A DNA stretch of 64,000 bases, from positions 186,001 through 250,000 of the forward strand of contig NZ_QYAD01000003.1 in NCBI RefSeq assembly GCF_016758255.1, in the 5' to 3' direction. Each line of letters begins with the position of its first letter. The first letter of the stretch is position 1. This stretch comes from Leucobacter chromiireducens subsp. chromiireducens (lineage in GTDB: Bacteria > Actinomycetota > Actinomycetes > Actinomycetales > Microbacteriaceae). This document shows positions 48,582-53,520 of the stretch, one piece after another. The notes under the pieces are model-generated. The model saw only the letters and a program-made list of their open reading frames with translations. It was not told the DNA's origin and made no database searches. Position numbers and translations under genes: made by a program.

Positions 48582-49778
48582 CTAGCCCTCCGCGAGCTCC
48601 TGCGCCTCTGGCGGGAGCTTCCGCACACGAGCGCGGCGCCGGCGGCGCTCCGGGATCATCGAGCGCATCTCCTCAAGCTTGCCGAAGCAGAGCAGCCGAT
48701 CCTCCGCCTCAAGCACCACGTGCTTGCGCGGGTTGGGGATCACCTGCACGCCGCGATGCAGCGTCAGCACCGTGATGTCGCGGTCCCAGAGTCCGAGCTC
48801 CCCGAGCGGCTTGCCCACGTGCTCGGAGCCCGCGTGCATCGAGATCTCCGCAACGCCGTACCCGGTGGACACGCTGAGGCGCTGACGCACATCGATCTCG
48901 GGGAAGTTCACCTGGTTCGCGATGTAGTCGATGATCGCGCCCGCGACGTCGAGCCCCGTCGCTGCCTCAATGCCCTGCAGACCGGGCGAGGAGTTCACCT
49001 CCATGACGAGCGGGCCGTCGTCGCCCTCAAGCATGTCGACGCCGGCGACGCGGAGTCCCATGATCTGCGCGGCACGCACCGCGGCCTGCTCGTACGCGGG
49101 CTCGAGCTGCACGGGCTCAACCGTGCCGCCGCGGTGCACGTTCGAGCGGAACTCGTCGCCGCTCGCCACCCGGCGCATCGCCGCAACCACGCGGTCTCCC
49201 ACCACGAGCGCGCGCACATCGCGGCCGCGGCTCTCCGAGATGAAGCGCTGGATCAGCACGTTCTGGCGGGTGGAGTGCAGCGTCTCAATGATCGCCTCGG
49301 CAACCTTCACCTGTGGGGCGAGGATTACTCCGATGCCCTGCGTTCCCTCAAGCAGCTTGATCACCACGGGGGCGCCGCCCACACTCTCGATCGCGGCGCG
49401 CACGTCGGCGCGGTTCCGCACGAACGCCGTTGCAGGCATCGCGATCGAGTGGCGCGACAGAATCTGAATCGCTCGCAGCTTGTCGCGCGAATTCGAGATG
49501 CCGTTCGCGGTGTTCGGCGTATACACGTCCATCTGCTCGAACTGGCGCACCACTGCCGTGCCGAAGTATGTGATCGAGTTCCCGATCCGGGGCAGGATCG
49601 CGTCGTAGTCGCTCAGCTGCTTGCCCCGGTACAGCAGGTCGGGTTCATCGCCGGCGAGGTCAATCCCAAAGCGCAACGTGTTGAGCACGCGCGCCTTGTG
49701 GCCGCGCTGCTCGCTCGCGGCCATGAGGCGCTGCGTCGAGTACGCCTGCGGGGCGCGCGAGAGAATCGCGAGTTTCAC
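48582..49778 (-). CDS. rimK: RimK-type ATP-grasp amidoligase fused to a C-terminal RCK_C (TrkA-C) domain
   Basis: A 398-residue fusion. Residues 1-295 are a RimK-family ATP-grasp ligase, which adds amino acids (classically glutamate to ribosomal protein S6) with ATP: NGISNSRDKLRAIQIL (about 92-107), the ATP Lys in VVIKLLEGTQGIGV (138-151), ESRGRDVRALV (182-192), GVDMLEGDDGPLVMEVN (246-262) and NSSPGLQGIE (262-271). Residues about 311-377 resemble RCK_C: EISMHAGSEHVGKPLGELGL then VIPNPRKHVVLEAEDRLLCF. RCK_C domains bind small ligands in K+ channel regulators. A basic tail (RRRRRARVRK) ends the protein. The GTG at 49778 has AGGAA 7 nt upstream. It is divergent, 24 nt apart, from the retropepsin gene. 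Confidence 0.88.
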   Translation of the reverse strand: MKLAILSRAPQAYSTQRLMAASEQRGHKARVLNTLRFGIDLAGDEPDLLYRGKQLSDYDAILPRIGNSITYFGTAVVRQFEQMDVYTPNTANGISNSRDKLRAIQILSRHSIAMPATAFVRNRADVRAAIESVGGAPVVIKLLEGTQGIGVILAPQVKVAEAIIETLHSTRQNVLIQRFISESRGRDVRALVVGDRVVAAMRRVASGDEFRSNVHRGGTVEPVQLEPAYEQAAVRAAQIMGLRVAGVDMLEGDDGPLVMEVNSSPGLQGIEAATGLDVAGAIIDYIANQVNFPEIDVRQRLSVSTGYGVAEISMHAGSEHVGKPLGELGLWDRDITVLTLHRGVQVIPNPRKHVVLEAEDRLLCFGKLEEMRSMIPERRRRRARVRKLPPEAQELAEG

Positions 49779-49802
49779 CGTAGTTCCTGCCAAGATAGAA
49801 GC

Positions 49803-50282
49803 GTGATCGGACAAGACCATTCAAGCACTCTCACGGGGTGGCGCGAGTGGGTGTCGCTGCCTGAAATCAATGTGCCCTGGATCAAGGCCAAGATCGACAC
49901 GGGCGCGCAGACCTCTGCACTCCACGCGACGGGCATTTCCGAGTTTGAGCGTGACGGCGCGCCGTGGGTGCGCTTCACCGCACACCCCTGGCAGCTGAGT
50001 GATGAGGATGCGGCCGAGGTTGAGCTTCCCGTGCACGATCGTCGCACCGTGCGCAGCTCCTCGGGGCACGCGCAGGAGCGTCCCGTGGTGCTCATCGACG
50101 TGCAACTGGTGGGCCGCACGATTCGCGCCGAGTTCACCCTCACCGACCGCGAAGAGATGCTGTTTCGAGTACTCATCGGGCGCGAGGCGCTGCGGCAGGG
50201 GTACATCGTTGACTCCGACGCTTCGTTTCTGGGCGGCAAGCCGCCGCGACCCGTCCGTCGACGCAACCGCGGTCGCGCGTAG
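49803..50282 (+). CDS. RimB-like retropepsin aspartic endopeptidase
   Basis: A 159-residue single-domain protein of the COG4067 type, a pepsin-like aspartic protease of retroviral fold. The catalytic motif is AKIDTGAQTSALHA, with Asp at residue 32, and the second conserved strand is MLFRVLIGREALRQGYIVD. In Pseudomonas-like bacteria, a related protein (RimB) trims glutamate tails added by RimK; older annotations call the family 'ATP-dependent zinc protease'. A basic tail (RPVRRRNRGRA) follows the domain. Divergent from the rimK-like gene with only 24 nt between starts. CAAGAT 6 nt before the GTG may be a leaderless -10 box. The frame is open back through the rimK-like gene only because of GC bias. 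Confidence 0.85.
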   Translation: MIGQDHSSTLTGWREWVSLPEINVPWIKAKIDTGAQTSALHATGISEFERDGAPWVRFTAHPWQLSDEDAAEVELPVHDRRTVRSSSGHAQERPVVLIDVQLVGRTIRAEFTLTDREEMLFRVLIGREALRQGYIVDSDASFLGGKPPRPVRRRNRGRA

Positions 50283-50341
50283 CCCTTCACGCCGCGCTTT
50301 CGCTACTTGTGTTCCCCCTAGTCAGCTTCCACGCAGCTCGC

Positions 50342-50347
50342 TAGTCT
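50342..50347 (+). promoter_or_regulatory. -10 box (TAGTCT) of the N-formylglutamate-amidohydrolase-like gene, leaderless
   Basis: TAGTCT, then GAACCC, then ATG at 50354; no Shine-Dalgarno. Identical arrangement to manC. Confidence 0.65.
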
Positions 50348-50353
50348 GAACCC

Positions 50354-51451
50354 ATGAGCGCCAGCAACCTGGATCTGATCCCTCGCGGAACCGTGTTCAC
50401 GCCCGAGCAAATCACCCACTACGCCGATCCCGATACGCGCAGTCTCGAGCAGGCCATCATTGACGCCGATCTGCTCGTCGCGACCCCGCACTCGGGTGCT
50501 GCGATCCCCGAGGAGCTCGCCGAGTTCCTCTCCCCCGCGCTCACCCGCCGACTGCAGTATGACTTCAGCGACGTGGCGACCGCATCGATCGTGCGCCGCT
50601 GGGCCGAGATCGACCCGCGCATCGTCGCGGTCATCAACCCGCACCCGCGCCTCATCCGAGACCCGAACCGACGCAAGCCCGACGATGTGCGCGCCGATCT
50701 CGCAGCCGCGATCGAGCGCGTCCGTGCCGCGGGCGCGTGGCAAAAGGTTGACCTCACGGGCGTCGATGCGATCCGCCCGGTCACCTTCTCCTTCTTCCCC
50801 ATTCTCGAGATCCCCGAGACCGAGGAGGGGCTGCAGCGTCTCGTCGACGCGTTCGCCGAGACCGCCGAGGCCGGCCTGGGTGTCTACGAGCGCACACGCG
50901 AAGCGCTCACCGATGCATTCGTGGCGCACGGACTTGAGCACGGTGGCTCGTTCACCCGCCTCTCGTTCCACGACACGATGAACACCACGACGACCCGTGA
51001 GGGCGCAGTAAACGTTGCGCGGGCCGAGGCCGATCGGCTGCCCGCCGTCGTCGCGCTGTCCAACCGCGGTGACCACCAGGGCGAAGAGCGCGATCCCGAG
51101 GATCGACCGACGATGGACCCGGCAGCGTTGCGCGAGCTCGCGGAGGCGCATCGCGCAGGCTTCGAAGTGAACGATCCCGCTGCGGTGCTCCTCAACCAGC
51201 CGTACCTCGGCAGCGAAGAAATCCGTGCGGCGGGCGCACGCTTTGGCGCGATGCGCGCCGAGGCTGACGCGGCGGGCCTGCGGCTGGGCGCGGTGCAGGC
51301 GGAGTTCCTGCGCGAGTATCTGCTCGGGCCGGCCGCTGCCGCGGAGCTGCAGGAGCCTGGCACTGACTGGGTGACCGAGAACCCCGATCACATCGACGCC
51401 GTCGCCCACGCGTGCAAGCGTGCGTGGGACGCATTCCGCGATGCCCAGTAG
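50354..51451 (+). CDS. N-formylglutamate amidohydrolase (FGase) family protein
   Basis: A 365-residue metal-dependent amidohydrolase. The N-terminal zinc motif appears as LLVATPHSGAAIP (His at residue 46), DFSDVAT and INPHPRLIRDPNRR follow, and later GGSFTRLSFHDTMNT contributes another His. Classical FGase removes formyl groups in histidine degradation, but distant members are linked with ATP-grasp amidoligases in peptide-modification clusters (a linkage described in comparative genomics of ATP-grasp/GNAT amidoligases). No histidine-utilisation gene is nearby, whereas the RimK and retropepsin genes are, which favours the second role. It is longer than HutG-type enzymes (about 270). It overlaps the GNAT gene by 11 nt. 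Confidence 0.83.
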   Translation: MSASNLDLIPRGTVFTPEQITHYADPDTRSLEQAIIDADLLVATPHSGAAIPEELAEFLSPALTRRLQYDFSDVATASIVRRWAEIDPRIVAVINPHPRLIRDPNRRKPDDVRADLAAAIERVRAAGAWQKVDLTGVDAIRPVTFSFFPILEIPETEEGLQRLVDAFAETAEAGLGVYERTREALTDAFVAHGLEHGGSFTRLSFHDTMNTTTTREGAVNVARAEADRLPAVVALSNRGDHQGEERDPEDRPTMDPAALRELAEAHRAGFEVNDPAAVLLNQPYLGSEEIRAAGARFGAMRAEADAAGLRLGAVQAEFLREYLLGPAAAAELQEPGTDWVTENPDHIDAVAHACKRAWDAFRDAQ

Positions 51452-52073
51452 CCCCGCACCCGAGTCTGCCTTCACCGTTCGCCCGCTCACCGCGGCCGAC
51501 ATCGAGGTGACGGCCCGCGTCCTCGCAGAGGGCTTCTGGGACGATCCGGTGTGGGGGCCCGCGTTCCCCGCGCACCCGGAGCGCATGGCGCACGCCCTCG
51601 CGCATTGGCGGTTCATGGCCGACCAGGCCGTGCGCTACGGTGAACCCCTCATCGCGGAGCTGCCGGACGGCACGGTCGCCGCGGTCTCAACCTGGTTCCC
51701 GCCGGGCCAGGACGAGATCCGTGAGGTTGATCTGCCGGCCTACGAAGCCATGCTGCGCAGCACGATCGGCGATGCCGCGGCAGAGGCGCTCCTCTCGGAG
51801 GGGGAGCTCTTCGCAGACGCACGTCCAAGCGAGCCGCACGCGTATCTCTCCATGCTCGCGGTGTCCCGCGAAGCGCGTGGGCTTGGGATCGGCATGCGCC
51901 TCGTCCAGGCTGCCCTCGAACGCTACGACGCTGCAGGGCTCCAGACCTATCTGGAATCGTCGAACCCCGCGAACGATGCGCGCTACGAGCGCCTCGGTTA
52001 CCGCCCGGCGAAGCAGATTCACATTCCAGGTTCGCCGACTGTGCAGAGTTACCTGCGGCCCGCTGCCGCGTAG
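51441..52073 (+). CDS. GNAT family N-acetyltransferase
   Basis: A 210-residue acetyltransferase. The N-terminus VRPLTAADIEVTARVLAEGF and the acetyl-CoA-binding motif REARGLGIGMRLVQAALE (about residue 135-152) define the family; ESSNPANDARYERLGY is the conserved C-terminal strand. The ATG at 51441 lies inside the end of the FGase gene (11-nt overlap), so the two are co-translated. GNATs are recurrent partners of ATP-grasp amidoligases, either capping the modified end or themselves transferring acyl groups. The substrate is unknown. Confidence 0.87.
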   Translation: MPSSPAPESAFTVRPLTAADIEVTARVLAEGFWDDPVWGPAFPAHPERMAHALAHWRFMADQAVRYGEPLIAELPDGTVAAVSTWFPPGQDEIREVDLPAYEAMLRSTIGDAAAEALLSEGELFADARPSEPHAYLSMLAVSREARGLGIGMRLVQAALERYDAAGLQTYLESSNPANDARYERLGYRPAKQIHIPGSPTVQSYLRPAAA

Positions 52074-52088
52074 CCGCGCACCCCTCCA

Positions 52089-52154
52089 AACGGAGAAATC
52101 CGGGCTCTCGGTCGGCTTCCTGAGGAAGCGTCCGAGAGCCCGGATTTCTCCGTT
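52089..52154. terminator. 23-bp perfect bidirectional hairpin with nested loop
   Basis: Arms 52089-52111 and 52132-52154 are perfect reverse complements. The 20-nt loop itself contains a small hairpin (GCTTCCT-G-AGGAAGC). It separates convergent GNAT (ends 52073) and the Dcu transporter (ends 52177). Confidence 0.8.
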
Positions 52155-52176
52155 GAACAGCGCGGGGCTTCGCGGT

Positions 52177-53520
52177 TTAGCCGCCCCAGAGAACGCCGAA
52201 CAGGGCGCCCGCCGCAATCGTGGTCACCGCGAGGATCAGCGTCGGCAGGAAGAACGAGTGGTCAACCAGCTTCGTGCCGAGCTTCGTTGAGCCCGAGTGA
52301 TCGAAGTTGGCCGCCGCAATCTGCGAGCCGTTGGTGGGCAGCAGGTAGATGCCCGCGAAAGCACCGGCCCACATGCCTGAGAGCAGTCCGAGCGGGATGC
52401 CCGCCGCGAGACCGATCGGCACAATTGTTCGCGTTGCCGTCGACTGGCTTGTCGTGAGCACGCAGACGAGGAACACACCGAGCGCGAAGATCCACGGTGC
52501 CGCGGTCACGAGACCACCCACGCCGTCAGCGATGAGCGTCGTGTGCGCGCCGAGGAACGTGTCGGTGAGCCAGGCGAGGCCGAAGAGGGCGATCGCGGAG
52601 ACCATACCGGCCTTGAACACAGTCATCGTGGGGATCTCGGAGACCTTGGGGCGCGACACCACGAGGATGAGCGTGCCCACCACGAACATGACGATCTCGA
52701 TGATCGGGGTCATCGCGATCGGGTCGCCCGCTGCGTCAAGCGGGCGGAGGCCCTTGAAGAGGCCGAAGGCCACGATCGCGGCCACACCGAGCAGGAAGAT
52801 CACTGCTGCGTTGCGGCCGGCCGCGGTGACGGTCACCTCAGCGCGCACCTCGGCGGCGTTCGCCGAGGGAGCGGGGATCTCACCCTTCGCGATCTTCGCC
52901 TGGATCTCGGGATCGTCCGCGATCTCCTTGCCGAGGCGGTTCACGACGATGCCGGAAATGATGATGCCGACGATCGCGGCGGGGATCGTCACCTTCAAGA
53001 TGTCGACGAGCTCGAAGTTCCAGGGGGCGGTGTCCGTGAGGGTCACCATGGCGGCCATCGCGGCGGAGACCGGGCTACACGCGAGCGCGACGCCTGTCGC
53101 GACAACTGACAGCGAGAGTGGCCGGGAGGGGCGCACACCGTTGCGGTAGGAGAGGTCCTGAATCACGGGGAGGAGCGGGTAGAGGATGTTCGACGTGCCC
53201 GCACCCACTGCGAACAGGAACGAAACGAGCGGCGCGACGAGCGTGATCTGCTTCGGGCTGCGCGCAATCAGCTTCGCGGCGATCGACACCATCCAGTCGA
53301 TTCCGCCCGCCGACTGCATCATCGACGAGGCGAGCACCACCGAGAGCACGATGAGCAGTGCATCGACGGGTGGTGAGCCGGGGGCCAGGCGGAACACGAA
53401 TACGAGGATCGCGACGCCAGCACCGCCCCAGAGACCCAGCCCCACGCCACTCGACCGTGTACCCATCACGATACAGCCGAGGACAACGAGGAGCTGCGTG
53501 ATAAACAGCACGATATCCAT
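52177..53520 (-). CDS. anaerobic C4-dicarboxylate transporter family (DcuA/DcuB-like)
   Basis: A 447-residue membrane protein with about 10-12 hydrophobic segments. GLWGGAGVAILVFVFRLAPG and PPVDALLIVLSVVLASSMMQ are Dcu hallmarks, followed by GAGTSNILYPLLPVIQDLSY and RPSRPLSLSVVATGVALACS. Dcu carriers exchange or take up fumarate, malate, aspartate or succinate. Presence near sdh genes in an aerobic-type actinobacterium suggests aspartate or dicarboxylate uptake rather than fumarate respiration; this is inference. Monocistronic. Confidence 0.88.
   Translation of the reverse strand: MDIVLFITQLLVVLGCIVMGTRSSGVGLGLWGGAGVAILVFVFRLAPGSPPVDALLIVLSVVLASSMMQSAGGIDWMVSIAAKLIARSPKQITLVAPLVSFLFAVGAGTSNILYPLLPVIQDLSYRNGVRPSRPLSLSVVATGVALACSPVSAAMAAMVTLTDTAPWNFELVDILKVTIPAAIVGIIISGIVVNRLGKEIADDPEIQAKIAKGEIPAPSANAAEVRAEVTVTAAGRNAAVIFLLGVAAIVAFGLFKGLRPLDAAGDPIAMTPIIEIVMFVVGTLILVVSRPKVSEIPTMTVFKAGMVSAIALFGLAWLTDTFLGAHTTLIADGVGGLVTAAPWIFALGVFLVCVLTTSQSTATRTIVPIGLAAGIPLGLLSGMWAGAFAGIYLLPTNGSQIAAANFDHSGSTKLGTKLVDHSFFLPTLILAVTTIAAGALFGVLWGG

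Follow-up and report, generated by a model that had tools for sequence, protein, structure and literature searches.

Introduction

In Pseudomonas, the retropepsin RimB is reported to cut polyglutamate and to stimulate polyglutamate synthesis by the ligase RimK, and the joint presence of RimB and RimK in scattered bacteria has already been described (PMC11957791). Retropepsins of the PF05618 family are likewise already known from Actinomycetota, where RloA-type peptidases also occur (7% of survey hits; PMC12239564). The cited RimK/RimB work is built on ribosomal protein S6 of E. coli and Pseudomonas. Here, we describe a RimK-type ligase gene fused to an RCK_C domain, together with a retropepsin gene that starts only 24 nucleotides away, in a 64,000-nucleotide stretch of Leucobacter chromiireducens subsp. 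chromiireducens (contig NZ_QYAD01000003.1, positions 186,001 to 250,000, forward strand; the whole of this stretch is referred to below as ‘the window’).

On comparative grounds, and with a probability that we put at roughly 0.62, we suggest that the two proteins would act as a ‘make-and-cut’ couple for alpha-linked glutamate chains. The chemistry itself is known by homology; to it are added a new domain fusion, that to RCK_C, a phylum-wide co-occurrence with a retropepsin and a probable target other than S6. No description of a RimK-RCK_C fusion was found among the titles and abstract starts listed in our literature searches, a coverage that leaves subscription papers largely outside. Gene neighbourhoods of RimK, retropepsins or zinc hydrolases are reportedly perhaps touched upon in the amidoligase survey of Iyer et al. 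2009.

The ligase and its predicted protease partner

The ligase gene lies on the minus strand (48582..49778; GTG start codon at 49778, gene end at 48582) and encodes a RimK-type ATP-grasp alpha-L-glutamate ligase of 398 amino acids with a C-terminal RCK_C (TrkA_C) fusion. The protein matches PF18030 (121 bits) and PF08443 (200 bits), as well as the RimK subfamily model TIGR00768 (248.5 bits, cut-off 143.4), and its residues 1-288 align without gaps to the RimK proteins of E. coli and Pseudomonas. Polyglutamate is contacted in P. aeruginosa RimK by S7, R8, S14, R64, S68, R189 and N262 (PMC10092738); all seven are identical in 99/99 rows of our fusion alignment, from which two of 100 loci (L210 and L212) were left out as short, and it is because they are retained that we infer glutamate to be the substrate. 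Two irregular copies were seen: the fusion gene of L210, from a draft genome (G600:C4:36986-38173), carries one in-frame TAG, and in a single-contig Leucobacter (G025:C1:2673326-2674520) the ligase and RCK_C matches are separate and meet at residue 288, in a frameshift-like manner.

The neighbouring gene, on the plus strand (49803..50282; GTG start codon at 49803), encodes a RimB-like retropepsin, an aspartic peptidase of PF05618 (131 bits, cut-off 27), for which the best NCBIfam model is RimB. Its predicted catalytic residue, Asp32, sits in a DTGA motif of which D32, G34 and A35 are invariant in 92/92 retropepsin rows and T33 in 91/92 (nine distant loci, whose flanks show no retropepsin, contribute no row). 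Six arginines (R14, R81, R93, R116, R122 and R127) are also invariant in all 92, as would fit an acidic substrate.

The two start codons are separated by a 24-nucleotide gap (49779..49802) that holds a likely RimK Shine-Dalgarno sequence, GGCAGGAA, as read from the DNA; the divergent orientation and this spacing, both part of an earlier sequence-only reading of the locus, are confirmed. The layout is that of the Microbacteriaceae, being divergent in 80/80 named loci, with a start-to-start spacing (by back-projection) of about 23-33 nucleotides in 79 of them and 47 in the other. We considered a promoter element common to both genes, as GGCAGG is present in 18/20 printed loci and TTGAAT in 20/20, and rejected it: TTGAAT is retropepsin coding sequence, and GGCAGG is the likely RimK Shine-Dalgarno.

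Conservation of the pair across Actinomycetota

Among 60 relatives, RimK and the retropepsin are both found in the same 34 genomes. The association is equally strict in a sample of the order, where the fusion and a single PF05618 gene occur together in 21 of 248 genomes, the remaining 227 lack both and none carries one member only. In a phylum-wide sample of 396 genomes, with up to four candidates scored per genome, RimK matches at E <= 1e-20 were obtained in 54; 22 of these (the Leucobacter genome's own included) cover the RCK_C region and, outside that genome, are 70-87% identical, the others stopping near residue 287-300 at an identity of at most 54%. Each of the 16 distant phylum carriers tested holds one PF05618 retropepsin gene.

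In a tree built from the ligase portion (36 rows, 35 of them different; 28 fusion rows, two identical, against eight plain ones), all fusion rows fall on one side of a single branch, with a support of 100/100; by sequence, the RCK_C-fused RimK is one clade spread over Actinomycetota. In 20 loci fetched from other families, the retropepsin lies near RimK in 11, divergently in six (L196, L197, L198, L213, L214 and L215) and in the same direction in five (L199, L200, L201, L202 and L208).

Some of these other families have, as a third neighbour, an AstE/AspA-type zinc hydrolase: its gene sits between or beside the pair in 9/20 loci (for example, L198 5131-6081, L201 1947-3182, L202 7656-8831 and L215 7585-8538), scores 131-139 bits with PF24827 in the five that were scanned, and also adjoins three of five fetched retropepsins that are unlinked to RimK. 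At E <= 1e-8, the 80 named loci gave no match to it. The gene order is retropepsin - hydrolase - RimK in L199, L201, L202 and L208, and retropepsin - RimK - hydrolase in L200.

The acceptor of the glutamate chains

The closest characterised relatives of this ligase act on the C-terminus of ribosomal protein S6 (PMC11957791), and with its active site intact the Leucobacter enzyme might be expected to do likewise. The S6 proteins of E. coli and P. fluorescens, however, end in GDSEE and DNADE, respectively (PMC11957791), whereas in S6 of the Leucobacter genome a basic stretch is followed by the terminal ...AKVGA, and a C-terminal Glu is found in none of 35 S6 proteins from 34 carriers (32 from Leucobacter, and G049 and G053). 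As S6 lacks a C-terminal Glu in 34/34 carriers read, S6 tailing is a poor model for this system; we consider it improbable, and the target is probably something other than classical S6. The termini argue against S6 and yet point to no alternative acceptor, since Glu ends are rare in non-carriers too (2/12 usable rows, G041 and G059; S6 was read in 47/60 genomes, one unusable). The authors of the RimB study themselves allow that other roles of RimK may exist where S6 has no terminal Glu (PMC11957791). One genome, G036, has two S6 genes (G036:C1:292615-292881 and G036:C1:115395-115661) with slightly different C-termini.

A small molecule or coenzyme given an alpha-glutamate tail, as by other RimK-family ligases, is a second candidate acceptor, with precedents in the M. 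jannaschii RimK relatives that act on coenzymes (PMC11957791) and in the polyglutamate side chain of methylofuran, which has its own enzymes (PMC8141765). Against this, none of the polyglutamate-contacting residues has been lost, the score of 314.6 bits with the E. coli-type S6-ligase model is far above the 165.8 and 96.5 bits of the coenzyme-ligase models, and a protease described as specific for runs of at least five Glu would be of little use on a short tail. A small-molecule acceptor is therefore unlikely, if worth keeping in mind.

The RCK_C domain and the Arg-rich tail

The RCK_C domain spans residues 309-373 (48660..48854, minus strand; PF02080, 36.8 bits over a cut-off of 27), preceded by a linker (residues 291-307) of low model confidence. 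It is well conserved, its mean identity to the Leucobacter copy being 82% across the 80 named loci and, over residues 307-376, 65% across 18 distant rows. Beyond it lies an Arg-rich tail (residues 377-390; 48609..48650, minus strand), recognised from the basic residues in the alignment, at least six out of 14 in 99/99 aligned rows (median 9), and from model confidence, the predicted local distance difference test score (pLDDT) being below 50 for residues 377-388. Among the matches listed for a structure search with the whole RimK model there is no RCK_C structure; the ATP-grasp part fills this list, whose matches span residues 1-294 and so stop short of RCK_C.

By sequence, the solved chains closest to the domain are those of BusR (E 0.0012) and KhtT (E 0.05), a result that suggested c-di-AMP (cyclic di-AMP) as ligand, and this was therefore tested. 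RCK_C would then sense c-di-AMP and switch the ligase accordingly, in an actinobacterial counterpart of the control of Pseudomonas RimK by c-di-GMP (cyclic di-GMP). Measured against the BusR structure with bound c-di-AMP and named pocket residues (PMC8517857), the position of Gly154 is G in 83/99 rows, that of Thr165 is T in 91/99, and some hydrophobic positions are kept or similar; set against these, His160 is replaced by Glu or Asp in 98/99 rows, Asn157 by Gly in 97/99, Ala164 by Ile in 94/99 and Pro181 by Lys in 76/99. A diadenylate cyclase (DAC) was found in 10/21 carriers of the order, all ten belonging to two other families. The Leucobacter genome gave no DAC-family match, in a search that was positive for 11/14 control genomes (C. 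glutamicum included), and neither did 18 same-family genomes of the order sample, of which 11 are carriers; DAC is missing in 11/21 order carriers. With no cyclase in the genome or in those 11 carriers, c-di-AMP gating is a poor model, and on the absent cyclase together with the replaced pocket positions we dropped it, giving it almost no credence.

The best reading of RCK_C is that of a repurposed regulator, probably a regulatory or dimerisation module with a ligand of its own. It is conceivable, though doubtful, that the domain, formerly a potassium-channel regulator, senses the ionic or osmotic state of the cell without c-di-AMP, and so sets the level of poly-alpha-glutamate as the balance between what is made and what the retropepsin destroys.

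The neighbouring FGase, GNAT and Dcu genes

The sequence-only reading had found four neighbouring genes, all of them indeed present, and had joined them in one candidate amidoligase system. They form two units: the RimK/retropepsin pair, and an N-formylglutamate-amidohydrolase-family enzyme (FGase; 50354..51451, plus strand) whose gene overlaps by 11 nucleotides that of a GNAT acetyltransferase (51441..52073, plus strand; PF00583, 41 bits). We judge both of the latter to lie outside the system, along with the DcuA/DcuB-type C4-dicarboxylate transporter that follows (52177..53520, minus strand; PF03605, 406 bits) and that is the usual neighbour of FGase. FGase belongs to its family by PF05013 and by fold: a VIA-align comparison of its model ranked FGase structures first, a Foldseek search gave no match at E <= 0.001, and a 14-row FGase profile run against PDB sequences returned five weak matches, some of them designed proteins and none an FGase. 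No NCBIfam model matched.

A four-gene system, in which ligase, protease, ‘de-blocking’ FGase and ‘capping’ GNAT would serve one substrate, could appeal to FGase lying at most 5 kb from the retropepsin in 19/21 relatives that have both, a closeness that we read as shared synteny. It could appeal, too, to two genomes, G015 and G022, where a divergent FGase paralogue (58-59% identity) adjoins the retropepsin with no Dcu gene in the stretch (L220 6233-7327; L055 and L056), the closer FGase copy sitting elsewhere with Dcu. Neighbourhood counts led us to reject it, and we regard it as very improbable: FGase occurs in only 13/80 and GNAT in only 7/80 named loci, all of them Leucobacter; of the 34 pair carriers among the 60 relatives, 13 gave no match to FGase, and two FGase genomes lack the pair. 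FGase keeps its Dcu neighbour where it is distant from the pair or the pair is missing (G013, G034, G024 and G015); Dcu adjoins 22/25 Leucobacter FGase genes, sometimes with GNAT and also without RimK, and in L033 and L035 GNAT accompanies FGase and Dcu with no retropepsin in the stretch. FGase and GNAT are thus a separate, Dcu-linked block, a neighbour effect within one genus, and the ‘de-blocking’ and ‘capping’ roles find no support. The sequence-only reading had itself named what would speak against its set, namely adjacency in this genome alone and an FGase tied elsewhere to histidine degradation; this is half borne out, in that the set does not extend beyond part of a single genus and FGase is linked to something else, though to a C4-dicarboxylate transporter (histidine-degradation, or hut, genes were not searched for).

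As FGase often fills the slot after the retropepsin, it could be taken for an in-place substitute of the AstE/AspA enzyme; we did not adopt this because FGase follows Dcu, although the paralogues of G015 and G022 leave it a small opening. The adjacent SDR (short-chain dehydrogenase/reductase) gene was rejected as a member, a close copy (94%) being present in 1/80 loci. The FGase-Dcu(-GNAT) set (50354-53520 in the window; L216-L219) perhaps serves to take up and de-acylate an N-acyl dicarboxylic amino acid.

Discussion

We propose a model in which the ligase would build alpha-linked glutamate chains, either on an acceptor or as a free polymer, and the predicted retropepsin would cut these back. 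RCK_C may gate the ligase through a ligand or through dimerisation, the acidic chain, or else its acceptor, may be held by the Arg-rich tail, and the AstE/AspA enzyme, where present, would finish breakdown of the chain. Co-occurrence, divergent layout and intact polyglutamate-contacting and catalytic residues all argue for such a synthesis and trimming couple, the part of the sequence-only reading that has fared best.

A number of observations weigh against this proposal. Both proteins score below the curated cut-offs of the relevant equivalogs (ligase, 314.6 bits against 331 for the S6--L-glutamate ligase model NF007764; retropepsin, 120.4 against 200 for the RimB model NF052261), and in one of the 34 relatives (G025) the RCK_C part is in its own frame from residue 288. 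In 9/20 other-family loci the retropepsin is not in the examined flank, some flanks being short and several of the genomes incomplete. Of these unlinked retropepsins, five were fetched, three sharing 33-35% and two 48-49% identity with the Leucobacter one; G473 and G600, which are among the nine genomes, have a plain RimK too, a possible alternative client for the protease. The AstE/AspA gene, for its part, is missing from the examined flank of 11/20 other-family loci.

It is conceivable, though doubtful, that poly-alpha-glutamate serves as a cation-holding polyanion; the couple would then be a means of buffering cations, separate from any modification of the ribosome. What is at hand is a phylum-wide clade of RimK that has kept its protease partner and its glutamate-chain site, has gained RCK_C, and whose hosts have an S6 without the acceptor residue; it suggests a use of RCK_C outside potassium transport, and in laboratory strains of Microbacterium or Leucobacter it would offer a tractable test of the purpose of polyglutamylation outside the ribosome.

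Amongst known systems, the Pseudomonas rim operon (RimABK) shares with this locus a RimK with the same polyglutamate contacts, a retropepsin with the DTG aspartate and adjacency of the two genes; it differs in that here RCK_C and the Arg-rich tail are added, S6 does not end in Glu, the genes are divergent in Microbacteriaceae and, in 9/20 other-family loci, an AstE/AspA hydrolase is present. In the RimBK hybrid of Desulfotalea psychrophila (PMC11957791), retropepsin and RimK are likewise functionally coupled, but as one protein, as opposed to the separate genes and RCK_C fusion seen here. RloABC of P. aeruginosa (PMC12239564) also combines a retropepsin with an ATP-grasp protein; there, RloA has a signal peptide and RloB is an inactive transglutaminase membrane protein, whereas the best-scoring model for our retropepsin is RimB. 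Finally, the c-di-AMP-binding RCK_C domains of BusR, KhtT and KtrA, from osmolyte and potassium systems, belong with ours to the TrkA_C family by Pfam, but here the domain is fused to a peptide ligase, with several pocket residues replaced, in a genome in which no diadenylate cyclase was found.

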